Assembly: GCA_947446685.1 (NCBI GenBank)
Contig: CANFIC010000007.1
Span: forward strand, 1-35,428
Length of the DNA: 35,428 nt
Source of the DNA: Burkholderiales bacterium
GTDB lineage: Bacteria; Pseudomonadota; Gammaproteobacteria; Burkholderiales; Burkholderiaceae_C
Direction of reading: 5' to 3'
Shown: positions 14,342 to 34,219 of the stretch, in pieces
Layout: each line of letters starts with the position of its first letter
Numbering within the stretch: the stretch's first letter is position 1
Translations under genes and position numbers: made by a program
Notes under the pieces: generated by a model
Seen by the model: the letters and a program-made list of their open reading frames with translations, nothing else
What the model was told of the DNA's origin: nothing
Databases searched by the model: none

Positions 14342-15718
14342 TCAATGAATGGTCATCAGGGTCTGCTCCACCTCGGCGAACAGCGGGCGGGCTCCCGGCG
14401 AGTCCTGAAAGCAGGCGCATTTCAGATCGTCGAGCAGCTTGATCGCTGCACCGTCATCAGCCGATCCGGCCGAGCTGCTGCAGCGAGCCAGCAGTTCTTC
14501 CAGCAGGCAGGCAAAAGCGCGTATTTCCAGCCGCTGCATGGCCTCGGCCTGCTGCTTGTCATCGAACGCCAGAAATGAAGCCGCGCCAAAGTCTCCCAGC
14601 AGGACCGTGCCACAGCCTTTGTGCAGGATGTTGTGTGCGTACAGATCGCCATGCATCAGCCCTTGAGCATGCAGATGCCTGGCCGCCGATGCGATGCCTT
14701 GTGCAATCAGCAGCAACTCGCGCAGCGCAAAGCCGGCGTCCGGCTCATAGATGTCGCGGGTGCAGGACTCCAGGCTGGGAGGCTGGGCCAGGTTGCGAAA
14801 AGCGGGGTCGATCAGGGGCATCACCATCGCGCATTGATCGGCCGGATGCCCCACCACCTGCCCGAGCATCTGGATCAGTTGCTGGTGGGATCCTGCGTTG
14901 ATGCAGGCGGCCAGTTCAGAGCCTGGCAGGCCGTCGCTGGTGACATCGCCCTTGAACAGCTTGACCGCAACCGGCAGCAAGCGGTCCCCTTGCTGCCATT
15001 GCGCTTGGTGGATGACGCCCGAAGCGCCCTCGCCGAGCTGCTGTTGCAGGCGCAGTTCCTGCCAATCAATCCTGGCCATCGGCGCAGCGCTGATCGCGGC
15101 TTGCTCGCGCTGTTCGCAAAAGGGATTGCCCGCATAAGCCAGCCAGGACAGGCGCGGCAGCTCAAGCAGAAATGCCGGGAATTCGCCCAGCTGATTGGCT
15201 GAAATCCTCAGCAATTCGAGCGCCTTGCAAGCCGCCAGTTCCGGCGGCAAGGCGCGCAAGCGGTTGCCGGCCAGCATCAGCTTTTGCAACTGCGTGCAGC
15301 GCCCGATGTCGGCGGGCAGCGCCTCGAGCTGGTTGTCAGTGAGGATCAGCCAGCGCAAGCCAAGGGGGATCGATCCGCCGGGAATTGAACTGATCCGGTT
15401 GGCCTTGAAGCCGATCATGCTCAGTTGCGGGCATTGGCCCAGAACTGCTGGCCAATCAGTGAAGTTGTTGCCCGAACAAAACAAGACGCGCAGCCGCTTC
15501 AGCCGAGGCAGATCAGCGGGAAGACTGGAGAGCCTGTTGTTCGACAGGTCGAGGATCTCCAGGCTGTCGGCAAGCGCAAAAATCTCTGGCGGAAATTCCT
15601 CCAGACCGCATGCCAGCGTCAACCGCTTGGCGCCGAGCCATGAACCTGAGCGGAGAGATGCGAGACTGCTGATCGAAGCGCTTTCCGGCGTGGCCCGTGC
15701 TTCAGAGCTCGAAGTCAT
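14342..15718 (-). CDS. Leucine-rich-repeat protein with C-terminal Ser/Thr protein kinase domain
   Basis: About seven LRRs (LEILDLSNNRLSSLPADL..., LRWLILTDNQLEALPADIG..., LQKLMLAGNRLRALPPEL...). Kinase motifs: LGEGASGVIHQA, PVAVKLFK, HGDLYAHNIL, LGDFGAA. Confidence 0.9.
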   Translation of the reverse strand: MTSSSEARATPESASISSLASLRSGSWLGAKRLTLACGLEEFPPEIFALADSLEILDLSNNRLSSLPADLPRLKRLRVLFCSGNNFTDWPAVLGQCPQLSMIGFKANRISSIPGGSIPLGLRWLILTDNQLEALPADIGRCTQLQKLMLAGNRLRALPPELAACKALELLRISANQLGEFPAFLLELPRLSWLAYAGNPFCEQREQAAISAAPMARIDWQELRLQQQLGEGASGVIHQAQWQQGDRLLPVAVKLFKGDVTSDGLPGSELAACINAGSHQQLIQMLGQVVGHPADQCAMVMPLIDPAFRNLAQPPSLESCTRDIYEPDAGFALRELLLIAQGIASAARHLHAQGLMHGDLYAHNILHKGCGTVLLGDFGAASFLAFDDKQQAEAMQRLEIRAFACLLEELLARCSSSAGSADDGAAIKLLDDLKCACFQDSPGARPLFAEVEQTLMTIH

Positions 15719-19913: not shown

Positions 19914-20984
19914 ATGGCCAATCTCAGAGAATCAGAACTGCATTACCCGCTGGGCGACGCCTTGCCGGCGCCGGGCAATGTGCTTGAAGTCGCCCCAGGA
20001 CTGCGCTGGTTGCGCATGGGCCTGCCATTCGCGCTCGACCATATCAATCTGTGGCTGCTGCGCGATGAGATCGACGGCCGGCAGGGCTGGACCATCGTCG
20101 ACTGCGGCATCAGCAACGAGCTCACCCGCGCCAACTGGGAGCTGATCTTCGCCAGGCATCTCGACGGTCTGCCGGTGCTGCGCGTGATCGTTACCCATTT
20201 CCATCCCGACCATATCGGCTTGGCTGACTGGCTGACCCGCCGCTGGGATTGCCGCTTGTGGATCAGTGCCACCGATTTCAATCTGGCGCGCTTGGCCAGT
20301 GGGTCGACGGTCGGGATGGGGGGTGCCGCCGCCGCCGATTTCTTTGCCAGCCATGGACTGACCGATGCCGATGCGCTCGCACAGATCCGTTCGCGCAGCA
20401 GCTATTACCCGAGCATGGTGCCGGCGGTACCCGACAAGTTCCGCCGTTTGATGAATGGTGACGGCATTGTGATCGGCGGACGAACCTGGGTCTGCATTGC
20501 AGGCTTTGGCCATGCGCCTGAGCATATGAGTTTGCATTGCCAAGCGGCAGGGCTGCTGATTTCCGGCGACATGGTGTTGCCGCGGATCTCGACCAATGTC
20601 AGCGTCGTCGATGTCGAACCCGAAGCTGATCCATTGAGCCTCTACCTGACATCGATCGCGCAAATGCTCGCATTACCCGCCGACACCTTGGTCTTGCCTT
20701 CGCATGGCAAGCCCTTCACCGGCTTGCATGCCCGTGTCGACCAACTGCAGCAGCATCATGACGAGCGGCTGGCCGATGTGACGCTGGCCTGCGCGGCCAA
20801 ACCCTGCCATGCCGCCGAGCTGCTTGACCTGCTATTCAGGCGCAAGCTCGATCTGCATCAGACGACCTTTGCGATGGGTGAGTCGGTGGCGCATTTGAAC
20901 GCGCTGTGGCTGGCCGGGAAACTGACCCGGCAGCAAGATGCCGACGGCATCTACCGGTTCGCCGCTGCGATCACTGCGCGATGA
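19914..20984 (+). CDS. MBL-fold metallo-hydrolase
   Basis: HxHxDH motif (VTHFHPDHIGLADWL), downstream ligands GFGHAPEH, SGDMVL, LPSHGKPF. Confidence 0.88.
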   Translation: MANLRESELHYPLGDALPAPGNVLEVAPGLRWLRMGLPFALDHINLWLLRDEIDGRQGWTIVDCGISNELTRANWELIFARHLDGLPVLRVIVTHFHPDHIGLADWLTRRWDCRLWISATDFNLARLASGSTVGMGGAAAADFFASHGLTDADALAQIRSRSSYYPSMVPAVPDKFRRLMNGDGIVIGGRTWVCIAGFGHAPEHMSLHCQAAGLLISGDMVLPRISTNVSVVDVEPEADPLSLYLTSIAQMLALPADTLVLPSHGKPFTGLHARVDQLQQHHDERLADVTLACAAKPCHAAELLDLLFRRKLDLHQTTFAMGESVAHLNALWLAGKLTRQQDADGIYRFAAAITAR

Positions 20985-21792
20985 TGGACTCCGCGCGCAG
21001 ATGTTCGCGCGCGGCTTCGAAGTCCGGCACCACCGATCGCACCACATCCCAGAAGCGTGCGCTGTGATTCATTTCGCGCAGATGCGCCAGTTCATGGGCA
21101 ACCACATAGTCGATGATCGCCGGGGTGAAGTGGATCAAACGCCAATTCAGCCTGACCTTGCCATTGACGCTGGCGCTGCCCCAGCGGGTCTGTGCCGAAC
21201 TCAGGCTCAATTGCGGCATGGCCACACCGAGTGCGGTAGCGAAATGCTGGCAACGCGGCAGGAACCAGGCCTTGGCACTGCGCTGCAGCCAGGCTTGCAC
21301 GGCATCGCGAATCTGCGCTTCGCTGGCGCTGGATGGCAGGCCTACGGCCAGCAGGCCATCGGCCTCCAGCAGCGTCACGCCTGAGCGCGCAGGGTCGAGG
21401 CTCAATTTCAAGACGCGGCCGAGGTAGGCGAGATCGGCACCATCGCACCAGGACTGTCGCGATGCCTGCACCCGACGGGCACGATCGCGCTGCTCGATCA
21501 ATTTGCGCAAGATCCAGTCGGACTTTTGCTGCAAAGCGCGGTCGATGTCCGCCTGCGGCAACCAGCGCGGCGCGCTGACTCGCAGGCCTTCGGCGCCGAC
21601 GACAAAGCCGATGCTGCGGCGCCTTGCCCGCTTCAATTCATAGTCGACCCGGTGTTCACCCAGGCATAACTCGCGCATTGCGCGGGGTTTGTTGAAAGCG
21701 TCCAGCGAGGGCTTTGCCGGCGTTGGTTCCGGCTCGGCTTCGAACAGCGAAATCTGCTTGTCCTGCAGCAAATTGGCCAGTCGTTTCAGCAT
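20971..21792 (-). CDS. YgjP/SprT-like zinc metallopeptidase (DUF45 type)
   Basis: HExxH motif VAHELAHLREMNHSARFWDVV with upstream WGSASVNGKVRLNWRLIHFTPAIIDYV. Confidence 0.88.
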   Translation of the reverse strand: MLKRLANLLQDKQISLFEAEPEPTPAKPSLDAFNKPRAMRELCLGEHRVDYELKRARRRSIGFVVGAEGLRVSAPRWLPQADIDRALQQKSDWILRKLIEQRDRARRVQASRQSWCDGADLAYLGRVLKLSLDPARSGVTLLEADGLLAVGLPSSASEAQIRDAVQAWLQRSAKAWFLPRCQHFATALGVAMPQLSLSSAQTRWGSASVNGKVRLNWRLIHFTPAIIDYVVAHELAHLREMNHSARFWDVVRSVVPDFEAAREHLRAESIIAQ

Positions 21793-21806: not shown

Positions 21807-22574
21807 TCAGAGGGTTGCTGCCGGTAAATAGGCTTCCGGATCGAGCCGGCGCATTTCGGTCTCGATCCAGGCTTCGACTTCTTGCATCAGCTCACCGGCC
21901 TTGCGCCCGTCAGAAGAAATCGGCTTGCCGATCGAGATGTCGACCATACCGGGGCGCAGCAGGAAGGTCTTGCGCGGCCAGCAGCGTGCCGAAGTGACAG
22001 CGATCGGCACGACCGGCACGCCGCTGGCGATCGCCAGGCGGCTGCCACCGGTTTTGTATTCGCCTTTTTGGCCACGGGCGATGCGCGTGCCTTCAGGGAA
22101 CATGATGACCCAATGACCCAAGGACGCCAGGCGGCGACCCTGCTCGGCGACCTTGTTCCAGGCCTGCGCGCGCTTGCTGCGGTCGATATGGATCATGTCC
22201 ATTCGGGCCATGGCCCAGCCGAAAAACGGGATGTAGAGCAACTCCCGCTTGAATACATAGGCCAGCGGATGCGCCATCAAACCTGGAAAAGCCAGAGTCT
22301 CCCAGGTGCTCTGGTGCTTGGCGAGCAAGACAACGGCAGCCTTGCTGTCGGTCTTGTCGGGCAGGTTTTCCATGCCCTGGATGCGGTAGCGGACGCCGCA
22401 GATCAGACGTGCGCCCAGCGTGGCGGTACGCAGCCAGCCAACGCAGGACCAGTAGACCGGGTCGCCCCGGACGAATAGCGAAATCAGCACGACGGCCAAG
22501 GCCCAGGGCACGACCGTGACCACCAACCAGACGATGTAGAGCAGTGAGCGTATTGCAGCGAGCAGCGTCGACAT
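21807..22574 (-). CDS. plsC: 1-acyl-sn-glycerol-3-phosphate acyltransferase
   Basis: LPLAT motifs: AKHQSTWETLAFP, FPEGTRIARGQKGEYKTGGSRLA, GVPVVPIAV. Confidence 0.9.
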   Translation of the reverse strand: MSTLLAAIRSLLYIVWLVVTVVPWALAVVLISLFVRGDPVYWSCVGWLRTATLGARLICGVRYRIQGMENLPDKTDSKAAVVLLAKHQSTWETLAFPGLMAHPLAYVFKRELLYIPFFGWAMARMDMIHIDRSKRAQAWNKVAEQGRRLASLGHWVIMFPEGTRIARGQKGEYKTGGSRLAIASGVPVVPIAVTSARCWPRKTFLLRPGMVDISIGKPISSDGRKAGELMQEVEAWIETEMRRLDPEAYLPAATL

Positions 22575-23218
22575 CAGTTCAGTTCTCCATTGCGGACAGT
22601 TTGCGGCAGAGTCTCGCCGCGGGCATCGGCTTTGCTGCGGCGGCCCTGCTTGATCAAATATTCGGCAAAGGCACTGAGATTGGTATGGATCCTGGTGCCC
22701 GGCACCTGGGCCGCCAAGGCCGCCAGCTGGGCCTCATCGATCGCACCGAGCCGGTCGCTGCGCAGCAGATGCGGTTGGCAGCCCGCGGCATGGGCGGTCT
22801 GGATGTCGCCGAGCGAAGCGCCCACCACATGCACTGTGGCCAGGTCAACGCCGAAGCGCTCGCCGATCTGCTGCAGCATGCCTGGCAGCGGCTTGCGGCA
22901 TTCGCAATTTTCCTCGGGAGTGTGCGGGCAGAAGAAGGCCGCGTCGAGCCTGCCGCCTTTTTCGGCCAGCAGTTGATTCAGGCGGATGTGGATCGCGTTC
23001 AGCGCCGACATGTCGAGCAGGCCGCGGCCGATGCCGGGCTGATTGGTGGCCAGCACCGTGTGCCAGCCGGCATGGTTGAGCCTTGCCACCGCTTCCAATG
23101 CACCCGGCAGGGGCTGCAACTCTTCGACCGACTTCACATGGTCATCGCGGTATTGATTCAAAGTCCCGTCGCGCCCCAGCACGACGAGTTTCATGGCATG
23201 ACTGTGGTCGATCCTCAT
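22574..23218 (-). CDS. gmhB: GmhB-like HAD family protein (D-glycero-D-manno-heptose-1,7-bisphosphate 7-phosphatase homologue) with substituted catalytic residues
   Basis: GmhB architecture: MKLVVLGRDGTLN, ATNQPGIGRGLLDM, zinc loop CPHTPEENCECRKPLPGM, VVGASLGDIQTAHAAGCQPHLL. Motif I is GRD instead of DRD, and motif IV is GAS instead of GDS. A start at ATG 23194 (MKLVVLG) is also possible. Confidence 0.82.
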   Translation of the reverse strand: MRIDHSHAMKLVVLGRDGTLNQYRDDHVKSVEELQPLPGALEAVARLNHAGWHTVLATNQPGIGRGLLDMSALNAIHIRLNQLLAEKGGRLDAAFFCPHTPEENCECRKPLPGMLQQIGERFGVDLATVHVVGASLGDIQTAHAAGCQPHLLRSDRLGAIDEAQLAALAAQVPGTRIHTNLSAFAEYLIKQGRRSKADARGETLPQTVRNGELN

Positions 23219-23231
23219 CCAGGCTCCTTGT

Positions 23232-25340
23232 TCAGGTCGCCAGGCGAGCCAGATCGGCCACCCGGTTCATGGCTTCGTGCAGGCATTTCAGCAGGCCCAG
23301 CCGGTTGGCGCGCAATAGCGGGTCTTCGGCATTGACCATCACATGGTCAAAGAAGGCGTCGACTGGGTCCTTCAAGGCCGCGAGTTCGCGCAGCGAAGCC
23401 GCATATTCGCCGTTATGAAACAGCGCATCGGCGAGCGCCTGCGCGCTGGTCAGCGCGGTCGCCAGATGCTGCTCGGCGGGCAATTGCAGCAGCGCTGGAT
23501 CGATCCGGGCGAGCACAGTCGTATCGCTCTTTTTCAGGATATTGCCGATGCGTTTGTTGGCAGCCGCCAGCGATGCGGCCTCGGGCAGCGTTGCGAATTC
23601 GCGCACCGCTTGCAACCTCGGCGTCACATCGGCCAGGCGCTGCGGTCGCAGCGCCAGCACCGCGTCCACTTCCTGGGCGCTGAAGCCTTGCTCACGCGCG
23701 GCGCCGGACAGGCGGTCGAAGATGAAATCAGTAAGCGGCTGCGTTGGGTCTTCGATCAAGCTGCCGAAGGCCGGCAAGGCGGCGGCGATCAAGGCGTCGA
23801 GCTGCAGCCGGCCGGCACGTTCGCCGAGCATGCGCAGCAGTCCCAAGGCGTGGCGGCGCAAGGCAAACGGATCCTTGTCGCCGGTCGGCAATTGGCCGAT
23901 ACCGAACATGCCGATCAGCGTCTCGAGCTTGTCGGCCATCGCGACGATCAAGCCGACCTGATTGCGCGGCAAGGCGTCGCCGGCAAAGCGCGGCTTGTAA
24001 TGGTCTTCGATCGCGATCGCGACTGCTTCGGGCAAGCCGTCATGGCGGGCGTAATAAGCACCCATGATGCCCTGCAATTCGGGGAACTCGCCGACCATGT
24101 CGGTCAGCAAGTCAGCCTTGGCCAGCTGGGCGGCAGCGTCGACCTGACTCGCCAGCGCAACTTCACCGAGCTGTGCGGCGATCGCTTGGGCAATCGCACG
24201 TACCCGCTCGGCGCGGTCTTGCTGGGTGCCGAGTTTGCCGTGGTAAACGACCTTGGCCAAGCCTGGAACGCGCTCAGTCAGCGATTTCTTGCGGTCCTGG
24301 TCGAAGAAAAACTTGGCATCGGCCAGACGTGGGCGCACGACGCGCTCATTGCCCTGGATGACGGCGCTGGCGTCAGCCGGGCTGATGTTGCTGACGACGA
24401 GGAACTGATGGGTCAGCTTTCCCGCGCTATCGAGCAAGGGGAAATATTTCTGATTCGCCTTCATCGTCAGGATCAGGCATTCCTGCGGCACGGCGAGGAA
24501 CTCCGGTTCGAACTGGCAGCTCAACACATTCGGCCGCTCGACCAGTCCGGTGACTTCGTCGAGCAAGGCGCTGTCGTCGATCGGCGTCAGGCCTTGCGCG
24601 TCCGCTGCTTCATGCAGTTGCCGCAAGATTTCGGTGCGGCGTTCGTCAAAGCTGGCAATCACTGCGCCTTGCTCGAGCATCTGGCTGGCGTAACTGTCAG
24701 CCGACTGGATTTCCAGCACCTCGACCTTGGCCTCGAAGCGGTGGCCGCGCGTCTGCCGACCGGCGCTCAAGCCCAGGGCCTGCACCGGCAGGATGTCGCT
24801 GCCATGCAGCGCAATCAATCCATGCACCGGGCGAACGAACTTGACATCGGTCCAGCCATCGGCCAACTGGTAAGTCATCACTTTGGGAATCGGCAGCTTC
24901 GCCAAGGCTTCGAGCAGGGCTTTTTGCAGACCCTCGAGCAGAGTGACACCGGCGACGACCGAGTCAAGGAACAGCGCGTCGGCTTTTCCGTCCGCTACCC
25001 GCTTGAGTTGCGGCAGCAAGGCCGGCACTGCGCTGGCCTCGATGCCCAGACTGGCAAGCTTCTTGATCAATGCCGGTGTCGCCTGGCCTTCTGCGCCGAT
25101 TGCTACCGCCACCGGCATCAGCTTTTGCAGCAGCGCCCGGTCGGCAGCTTTCGCCGCGACACCGGTAAGGTGCACGGCAAGGCGGCGTGGCGAAGCGAAT
25201 GGCGTGACGGCGCTGTTCGCCTCGAGCAGGCCCTGCGCCTTCAGGCTGTCGGACAGCAGGGCGGCGAATGAATCGCCAAGCTTCTTCAAGGCCTTCGGGG
25301 GCAGTTCTTCAACAAACAATTCAATCAGCAGATTGCTCAT
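23232..25340 (-). CDS. glyS: Glycyl-tRNA synthetase beta subunit
   Basis: MSNLLIELFVEELPPKALKKLGDSFA..., LTMKANQKYFPLLDSAGKLTHQFLVVSNI, RPRLADAKFFFDQDRKKSL, GKLGTQQDRAERVRAIA. Confidence 0.96.
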   Translation of the reverse strand: MSNLLIELFVEELPPKALKKLGDSFAALLSDSLKAQGLLEANSAVTPFASPRRLAVHLTGVAAKAADRALLQKLMPVAVAIGAEGQATPALIKKLASLGIEASAVPALLPQLKRVADGKADALFLDSVVAGVTLLEGLQKALLEALAKLPIPKVMTYQLADGWTDVKFVRPVHGLIALHGSDILPVQALGLSAGRQTRGHRFEAKVEVLEIQSADSYASQMLEQGAVIASFDERRTEILRQLHEAADAQGLTPIDDSALLDEVTGLVERPNVLSCQFEPEFLAVPQECLILTMKANQKYFPLLDSAGKLTHQFLVVSNISPADASAVIQGNERVVRPRLADAKFFFDQDRKKSLTERVPGLAKVVYHGKLGTQQDRAERVRAIAQAIAAQLGEVALASQVDAAAQLAKADLLTDMVGEFPELQGIMGAYYARHDGLPEAVAIAIEDHYKPRFAGDALPRNQVGLIVAMADKLETLIGMFGIGQLPTGDKDPFALRRHALGLLRMLGERAGRLQLDALIAAALPAFGSLIEDPTQPLTDFIFDRLSGAAREQGFSAQEVDAVLALRPQRLADVTPRLQAVREFATLPEAASLAAANKRIGNILKKSDTTVLARIDPALLQLPAEQHLATALTSAQALADALFHNGEYAASLRELAALKDPVDAFFDHVMVNAEDPLLRANRLGLLKCLHEAMNRVADLARLAT

Positions 25341-32545: not shown

Positions 32546-34219
32546 ATGACCGAGATGCCCCGCCCGCCTGAGTCTTCATTGCCGATGCCTGGGCAGGCCA
32601 GGGCATCCGCGCCAGCGGTCTGGTTGCTGATGGCGGTGGTTCTGGCGGTCTGGTTCATGACGCTGAGCATCAGGCATCTGCTACCTTCGGACGAGGGTCG
32701 CTATGCCGAGATCGCGCGCGAGATGTTCGCCAGCGGCGACTGGGTGACGATCCGCTACAACGGCTTGAAGTATTTCGAGAAGCCGCCCTTCCATTTGTGG
32801 ATGACAGCGCTGGCTTATCAAGCCTTTGGCGTCGGTGACTGGCAAGCCAGGCTTTGGGTCGCAATCAGCGGCGCTGCCGGTCTGCTGCTGACGATGTGGG
32901 CGGCGCGGCGCTGGTACGGTGACCGGGTGAGTTGGTTCACCGGCCTTGCGCTGCTGGCGGCTCCGACCTGGAATATCGGCAGCCATTTCAACTCGCTCGA
33001 CATGGGCGTCTCGGGTGCCTTGGCCGGCGTGCTGGCCGGCTTCCTGCTGGCTCAGCATCCTCAAGCGAGCTTGCAAAGCCGCCGGCGCTGGATGTTGTTT
33101 GCCTGGGCTGCGATGGCCTTGGCGGTGCTGACCAAGGGGCTGATCGGCCTCGTGTTGCCGGGTCTGGTGCTGGTCGTTTACAGCTTGGTGGCGCGCGACT
33201 GGGTTTTGTGGCGCCGCTTGCATATCGTCAGCGGCACGATCCTCTTCCTGCTGCTGACGGCGCCCTGGTTCTGGCTGATTTCGACCCGCAACCCGGAATT
33301 TACGCAGTTCTTTTTCATCCATGAGCATTGGCAGCGCTACACCTCTTCGGTGCACCAGCGCGGCGCCCCCTGGTGGTACTTTGGACCGCAGCTGATTGCA
33401 GGATTTTTGCCCTGGCTGGGGCTGACGCCGCGCATCTGCGCTTTGCTGCGAAATTCTGGCCAGGCCAGGGAATTCAGGCCGGAGTTGCTGTTGGCCGTCT
33501 GGGCCGGCGCGATCCTTGTATTCTTCAGCCTGTCGGGTTCCAAGTTGCCCGGCTATATCCTGCCGGTCTTTCCGGCGCTGGCGCTGCTGGCGGCGCTGGC
33601 CCTCGACCGGATCGACGCCAAGGCCTGGCAGCGACAGTTGCTCGGCATGCTGCTGCTGGCTGGCGGCGGCTTGCTGGCGACGCTGCTGCTGCAACGCAGT
33701 GACGACTATGGGCTGTGGCTGGGAGCGGCTTGCCTGGTGATCCTGCTCGGCTTGCTGCTGGCTTGGCGTTGCAACCGAGGTGGCCAACTGGGCCTGAGTA
33801 TCACGCTGTTTGCGCTCGCCTGGTTCGGCGGCACGACGGTCGGGCTGGCCGGGCATCAGACGCTCGGGCGCAGCAATTCGGGCGTCGACCTGGTGCCAGC
33901 GATCGAGGCGGTGTTGACCCCGCAGATGCCGATCTATTCGGTACGCCGGCTTGACCACACCTTGCCCTTCTATCTGCGGCGCACCATGATCATGGTCGAG
34001 GCGCCTGATGAGCTGGCTTTCGGCGTCGAGCAAGAGCCGCAGAAATGGCTGCCAACGCTGGCCGCTTTCTCGGCAGCCTGGACCACCGGTCCGCCGGCCC
34101 TTGCGCTGATGTCGCGCGACAGCTATCAACAGCTGAAGGCCCAAGGGCTGCCGATGTTTGACCTGACCGGGGACGAAAAGCGCCTCGTTGTGACCAACTT
34201 TCCCGGTAAATCGCCATGA
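32546..34219 (+). CDS. ArnT-like (GT39/GT83, PMT family) integral membrane glycosyltransferase
   Basis: LLPSDEGRYAEIAREMFASGDWVTIRYNGLKYFEKPPFHLWMTALAYQAFGVGDWQARL and multiple TM helices. Confidence 0.88.
   Translation: MTEMPRPPESSLPMPGQARASAPAVWLLMAVVLAVWFMTLSIRHLLPSDEGRYAEIAREMFASGDWVTIRYNGLKYFEKPPFHLWMTALAYQAFGVGDWQARLWVAISGAAGLLLTMWAARRWYGDRVSWFTGLALLAAPTWNIGSHFNSLDMGVSGALAGVLAGFLLAQHPQASLQSRRRWMLFAWAAMALAVLTKGLIGLVLPGLVLVVYSLVARDWVLWRRLHIVSGTILFLLLTAPWFWLISTRNPEFTQFFFIHEHWQRYTSSVHQRGAPWWYFGPQLIAGFLPWLGLTPRICALLRNSGQAREFRPELLLAVWAGAILVFFSLSGSKLPGYILPVFPALALLAALALDRIDAKAWQRQLLGMLLLAGGGLLATLLLQRSDDYGLWLGAACLVILLGLLLAWRCNRGGQLGLSITLFALAWFGGTTVGLAGHQTLGRSNSGVDLVPAIEAVLTPQMPIYSVRRLDHTLPFYLRRTMIMVEAPDELAFGVEQEPQKWLPTLAAFSAAWTTGPPALALMSRDSYQQLKAQGLPMFDLTGDEKRLVVTNFPGKSP

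Follow-up and report, generated by a model that had tools for sequence, protein, structure and literature searches.

The window, a stretch of 35,428 nucleotides from a Burkholderiales bacterium (assembly GCA_947446685.1, contig CANFIC010000007.1), carries on its minus strand a gene that had been proposed to encode a GmhB-like HAD phosphatase without its catalytic residues. It lies between glyS and plsC, as the original prediction had it, and this arrangement is conserved across 179 glyS-type GmhB loci (glyS upstream in 174, plsC downstream in 168). The features considered here, all on the minus strand, are as follows.

20971..21792: YgjP-like metallopeptidase, downstream of plsC
21807..22574: plsC-like acyltransferase, downstream of gmhB, with a start codon that overlaps the gmhB stop (TGATG)
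22574..23218: candidate pseudophosphatase of GmhB fold, 214 amino acids, intact ORF (PRK08942 match, AF2 model, Foldseek)
22805..22822: motif IV GASLGD, aa 133-138, with Ala in place of the Mg ligand Asp134; D138 kept
22889..22930: zinc loop CPHTPEENCECRKP, aa 97-110, including motif III Lys109, Cys/His ligands invariant
23039..23050: motif II region ATNQ, aa 57-60, Thr58 kept
23135..23152: loop after motif I, YRDDHV, aa 23-28, with Y/F23, R24, H27 and V28 fixed across GRDG proteins
23165..23176: motif I GRDG, aa 15-18, with Gly in place of the nucleophile Asp15; D17 kept
23232..25340: glyS, upstream operon neighbour by conserved synteny

Because the gene order is kept and the stop codon overlaps the plsC start, the role of the gmhB product may plausibly be tied to a glyQ-glyS-gmhB-plsC operon. 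Elsewhere in the window, an ORF at 14342-15718 has distant, sub-cut-off matches to repeat-containing models (the XopAC family and a Leptospira protein) and is probably just a leucine-rich-repeat protein, and 32546-34219 encodes a homologue of ArnT-like lipid A aminoarabinose transferase that scores under the equivalog cut-off.

Active site of the window protein

The window protein matches PRK08942, the NCBIfam equivalog model of GmhB (NF006506), at 193.4 bits against a cut-off of 178. Its AF2 model (pLDDT 90, pTM 0.86) has as its best Foldseek match the crystal structure of Bordetella bronchiseptica GmhB, 3l8h (TM (target) 0.92, E 7.9e-20). When the two are aligned structurally, 48% of residues are identical, and the GmhB fold is predicted to be preserved. 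The protein thus resembles solved GmhBs (3l8h, 4pnh) in the fold predicted for it, in its zinc loop, in motifs II and III and in its position between glyS and plsC, but it has Gly in place of the nucleophile, Ala in place of the first motif IV Asp and a remodelled loop after motif I, and it often occurs in genomes without the heptose pathway. Motif I reads KLVVLGRDGTLN, with GGG as the codon of residue 15, and motif IV reads VVGASLGDIQT, with GCT at residue 134; a HMMER alignment places Asp at both positions in 4pnh (B. thailandensis) and 3l8h, so that both predicted substitutions are borne out. In HAD phosphatases, the Asp that corresponds to residue 15 is the covalent nucleophile, and D15 and D134 would be expected to be two of the three protein ligands of Mg2+.

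The remainder of the site is as had been described, with an undisrupted ORF and an intact motif II (LATNQPGIG), zinc loop (CPH...C.C) and RKP. The zinc ligands C97, H99, C105 and C107 and the motif III Lys K109 are invariant, as are D17, T58, R108 and K109 within the GRDG clade, so the phosphate-binding side (T58, R108 and K109) is kept despite replacement of D15 and D134. The protein thus lacks the DxDG nucleophile and the complete GDxxxD pair of motif IV expected of GmhB while retaining the zinc loop, motif III Lys and predicted fold. As in pseudophosphatases in general, catalytic residues are gone from an ORF under purifying selection, and the predicted fold and part of the ligand site are kept; the literature searched contained no pseudophosphatase derived from GmhB. 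Coverage of that search was incomplete, and the novelty of a GmhB pseudoenzyme is accordingly provisional.

The loop after motif I distinguishes these proteins further. Position 27 is His in all 50 proteins of the GRDG clade, whereas, of the 96 homologues in which the Asp set is complete, 95 carry Phe or Tyr here and not one carries His. Position 23 is Tyr or Phe in nearly all GRDG proteins but mostly Asp in the enzymes; Arg at 24 and Val at 28 do not vary within the clade, and L34, H130 and T141 are additionally fixed in its Roseateles-type branch. The squiggle and flap that cover the active site of HAD proteins follow strand 1, where the loop with H27 lies.

Distribution and origin of the GRDG form

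Both substitutions are real, and they are not accidents of one genome. Alignment with orthologues of close relatives showed GRDG together with VGA in 17 of 17 other genomes of the genus, with varying Gly codons (GGG, GGC, GGT and GGA). All 64 Roseateles-type loci, a group identified from named genomes as Roseateles/Paucibacter/Pelomonas/Mitsuaria/Inhella, have GRDG, and residue 134 is Ala in all except one, which has Val. Roseateles, Paucibacter and their relatives are bacteria of soil and freshwater. Azohydromonas lata and 15 family genomes of about 12 genera combine GRDG with a retained motif IV Asp; D15G is thus common to a wider clade, whereas D134A is confined to the Roseateles-type branch.

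The GRDG proteins, from 50 genomes, group as a single clade in a 179-row GmhB tree (SH-aLRT 99). The clade retains support of 99/95 when the trait columns are masked (100/99 for the Roseateles-type part). Because Roseateles- and Azohydromonas-type proteins stay together in the masked tree, the idea that D15G arose twice, once in each group, is unsupported, and with about 25 genus codes of our sample in the clade the change is no oddity of one genus. Catalytic losses also occur elsewhere among Burkholderiales GmhBs. G033 has a separate Asp to Gly change and lacks H27, and other proteins have Asn or Glu at the second motif I Asp or Ala or Ser at the nucleophile. Two loci (L259 and L264, in G062 and G168) read ASDG or SSDG in motif I, another independent loss of the nucleophile. 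A second, separate GmhB clade of 16 genomes, found in genomes without hldE and hldD, has mostly DRDG in motif I with a VGSxxxH type of motif IV, in which Asp is changed to Ser or Asn, mostly along with Asp to His.

Loci of the VGSxxxH-type clade: L047-L052, L254, L257, L258, L260, L262, L266, L269, L270, L272, L273, L275

How the GRDG form came to be distributed is less clear. The rpoB tree, with its poorly resolved backbone, interleaves GRDG and DRDG genomes, as do trees of the neighbouring genes, which speaks against strict vertical descent, although one GRDG clade remained compatible with the data in an AU test (p 0.07). Unlike rpoB, the neighbour-gene tree (partial glyS/plsC) splits the Roseateles-type group, and it was not relied on for species relations. 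One locus (L173:1103-2295, in G150) holds two copies side by side between glyS and plsC, GRDG first and DRDG second; no other tandem pair of this kind was seen. The distribution could reasonably be explained by an ancient tandem duplication followed by differential loss, although transfer may instead account for it.

Heptose synthesis and second GmhB proteins

It had also been suggested that heptose synthesis in this bacterium would be absent or would need another phosphatase, and both situations were found. We searched 60 relatives with profile models of gmhA, hldD, waaC and hldE and 150 family genomes with those of hldE and hldD. GmhA-model matches of 70-110 bits, which presumably represent a paralogous SIS-domain protein such as DiaA, were left out of the GmhA count. 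Among 178 Burkholderiales genomes with a glyS-type GmhB, the complete set of four catalytic Asp is present in 65 of 67 that have hldE and hldD, as compared to 21 of 84 that have neither, absence here being judged by profile search for these two genes. The association is strong when relatedness is ignored (Fisher p 2e-21) and borderline when independent pairs on supported branches of the neighbour-gene tree are compared (about five for, none against; median p 0.06). The two hldD-positive exceptions are G162 and G124, and in both of them a further GmhB copy keeps its motifs intact.

Within the genus, the profile search found no hldD match over the family cut-off; hldE and a second GmhB occur in the window's genome and five congeners, and neither occurs in the other twelve. 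Neither hldE, hldD nor another GmhB is present in close relatives such as G014 and G017. Every GRDG genome with hldE (19 of 19) carries a second GmhB in which both D[RK]DG and GDxxxD are preserved, and in many cases this copy adjoins hldE. Among 15 GRDG genomes checked that lack hldE and hldD, most have only the pseudo copy, with a second one in three (G086, G104 and G139).

The search for a second gmhB in the window's own genome found an intact copy on a different contig (G000:C379:2503-3117), next to a fused hldE. This protein shares the TIGR01656 domain with the window protein but is only 35% identical to it, keeps DRDG and GDxxxD and lies beside hldE. The contig that carries the pair is short (L278:1071-3117) and absent from the two closest relatives, and its content may conceivably be an accessory island or the result of misbinning. 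In enterobacteria the GmhB step is partly redundant (PMC9302095), and loss of this copy therefore need not abolish heptose synthesis.

Selection, alternatives and a possible role

Across 65 Roseateles-type sequences, the median omega of gmhB was 0.246, as compared to 0.268 for glyS, 0.323 for plsC, 0.407 for ygjP and 0.090 for glyQ, and against the two closest relatives gmhB gave about 0.09. Purifying selection is equally strong on the GRDG gene and on the enzyme outgroup, no truncated or short copies were found among the homologues compared, and the gene is rarely lost, a GmhB match remaining in 70 of 74 family genomes without hldE. We thus regard the window protein as very probably a conserved pseudoenzyme, its lack of catalysis being read from the residues lost. 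That it is a GmhB-derived pseudophosphatase which, once released from heptose synthesis, was retained as a binding protein with no catalytic role appears probable, and a specific binding or regulatory mechanism can be offered only tentatively.

The original prediction allowed for either a non-catalytic protein or a changed chemistry, and fixation, selection and the lack of broken copies favour the former, while the invariant His27 leaves room for the latter. A remodelled site made up of H27, R24, D17, R108 and K109 would then catalyse another reaction on a new phosphorylated ligand with no Asp nucleophile. The clade-wide fixation of H27 and Y/F23, the invariance of D17, T58, R108 and K109, and selection equal to that on the enzyme outgroup all agree with such an activity, but the HAD nucleophile is missing, a Mg ligand is missing as well in the Roseateles-type branch, and the context indicates no substrate, so we consider it improbable. 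Slow decay is distinctly improbable. According to this explanation the gene does nothing useful by itself and survives through translational coupling with glyS and plsC, which makes its loss costly, and both the stop/start overlap with plsC and the several kinds of catalytic loss in genomes without the heptose pathway are consistent with it. However, omega is as low as that of the neighbours, all copies seen are unbroken and novel residues have become fixed, which disfavours a degenerating pseudogene, and a purely positional role would not keep the zinc loop and motifs II and III at 100%. Although the source is a draft genome of 479 contigs, a sequencing or assembly error or a strain-specific mutation has practically no chance of being correct, because the same residues appear with different codons in dozens of independent genomes, including the 17 of the genus and the 64 Roseateles-type loci; frameshifted relatives, which would likewise have undermined the prediction, were not seen.

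Returning to the non-catalytic binding protein, we infer an order of events, ligand binding and a regulatory role along the following lines. In the simplest order, the nucleophile would have been lost first, from the glyS-linked GmhB of an ancestor of Roseateles- and Azohydromonas-type bacteria, and the first motif IV Asp next, in the Roseateles-type branch, which would leave two of the three expected protein Mg2+ ligands gone. These losses may have been tolerated because heptose synthesis was already lost or relied on a second GmhB of its own. Through these changes the protein would have retained its fold, its zinc loop and the residues of motifs II and III that bind phosphate, and would have gained the invariant loop Y/F23-R24...H27-V28 after motif I. 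It would now bind a putative anionic ligand or a partner protein without hydrolysis and have a regulatory or scaffolding function within the glyQ-glyS-gmhB-plsC operon. Because the T58, R108 and K109 side is kept, binding, presumably of an anion, is the most economical reading. Because D17 and D138 are retained, some residual or altered activity is conceivable. More speculative, and in our view doubtful, is that the nucleophile-free, remodelled GmhB pocket encoded in the glyS-plsC operon serves the whole lineage by sensing a new phosphorylated ligand or by acting on it catalytically. If true, this would represent a route that evolution could repeat, in which a phosphatase orphaned by the loss of LPS heptose becomes a regulator.

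The curated family model calls this protein an active GmhB, which would suggest heptose synthesis in a large environmental group; for many of these bacteria, both the name and the implied pathway look wrong. Heptose-free LPS in Roseateles-type genera was not reported in the literature searched, the coverage of which was incomplete. The invariant loop after motif I provides a testable handle on the function of the protein. The Burkholderiales form a natural series from intact enzyme through nucleophile loss to metal-ligand loss, with the tandem pair as a possible intermediate, and would be useful for studying how an orphaned enzyme turns into a conserved pseudoenzyme.
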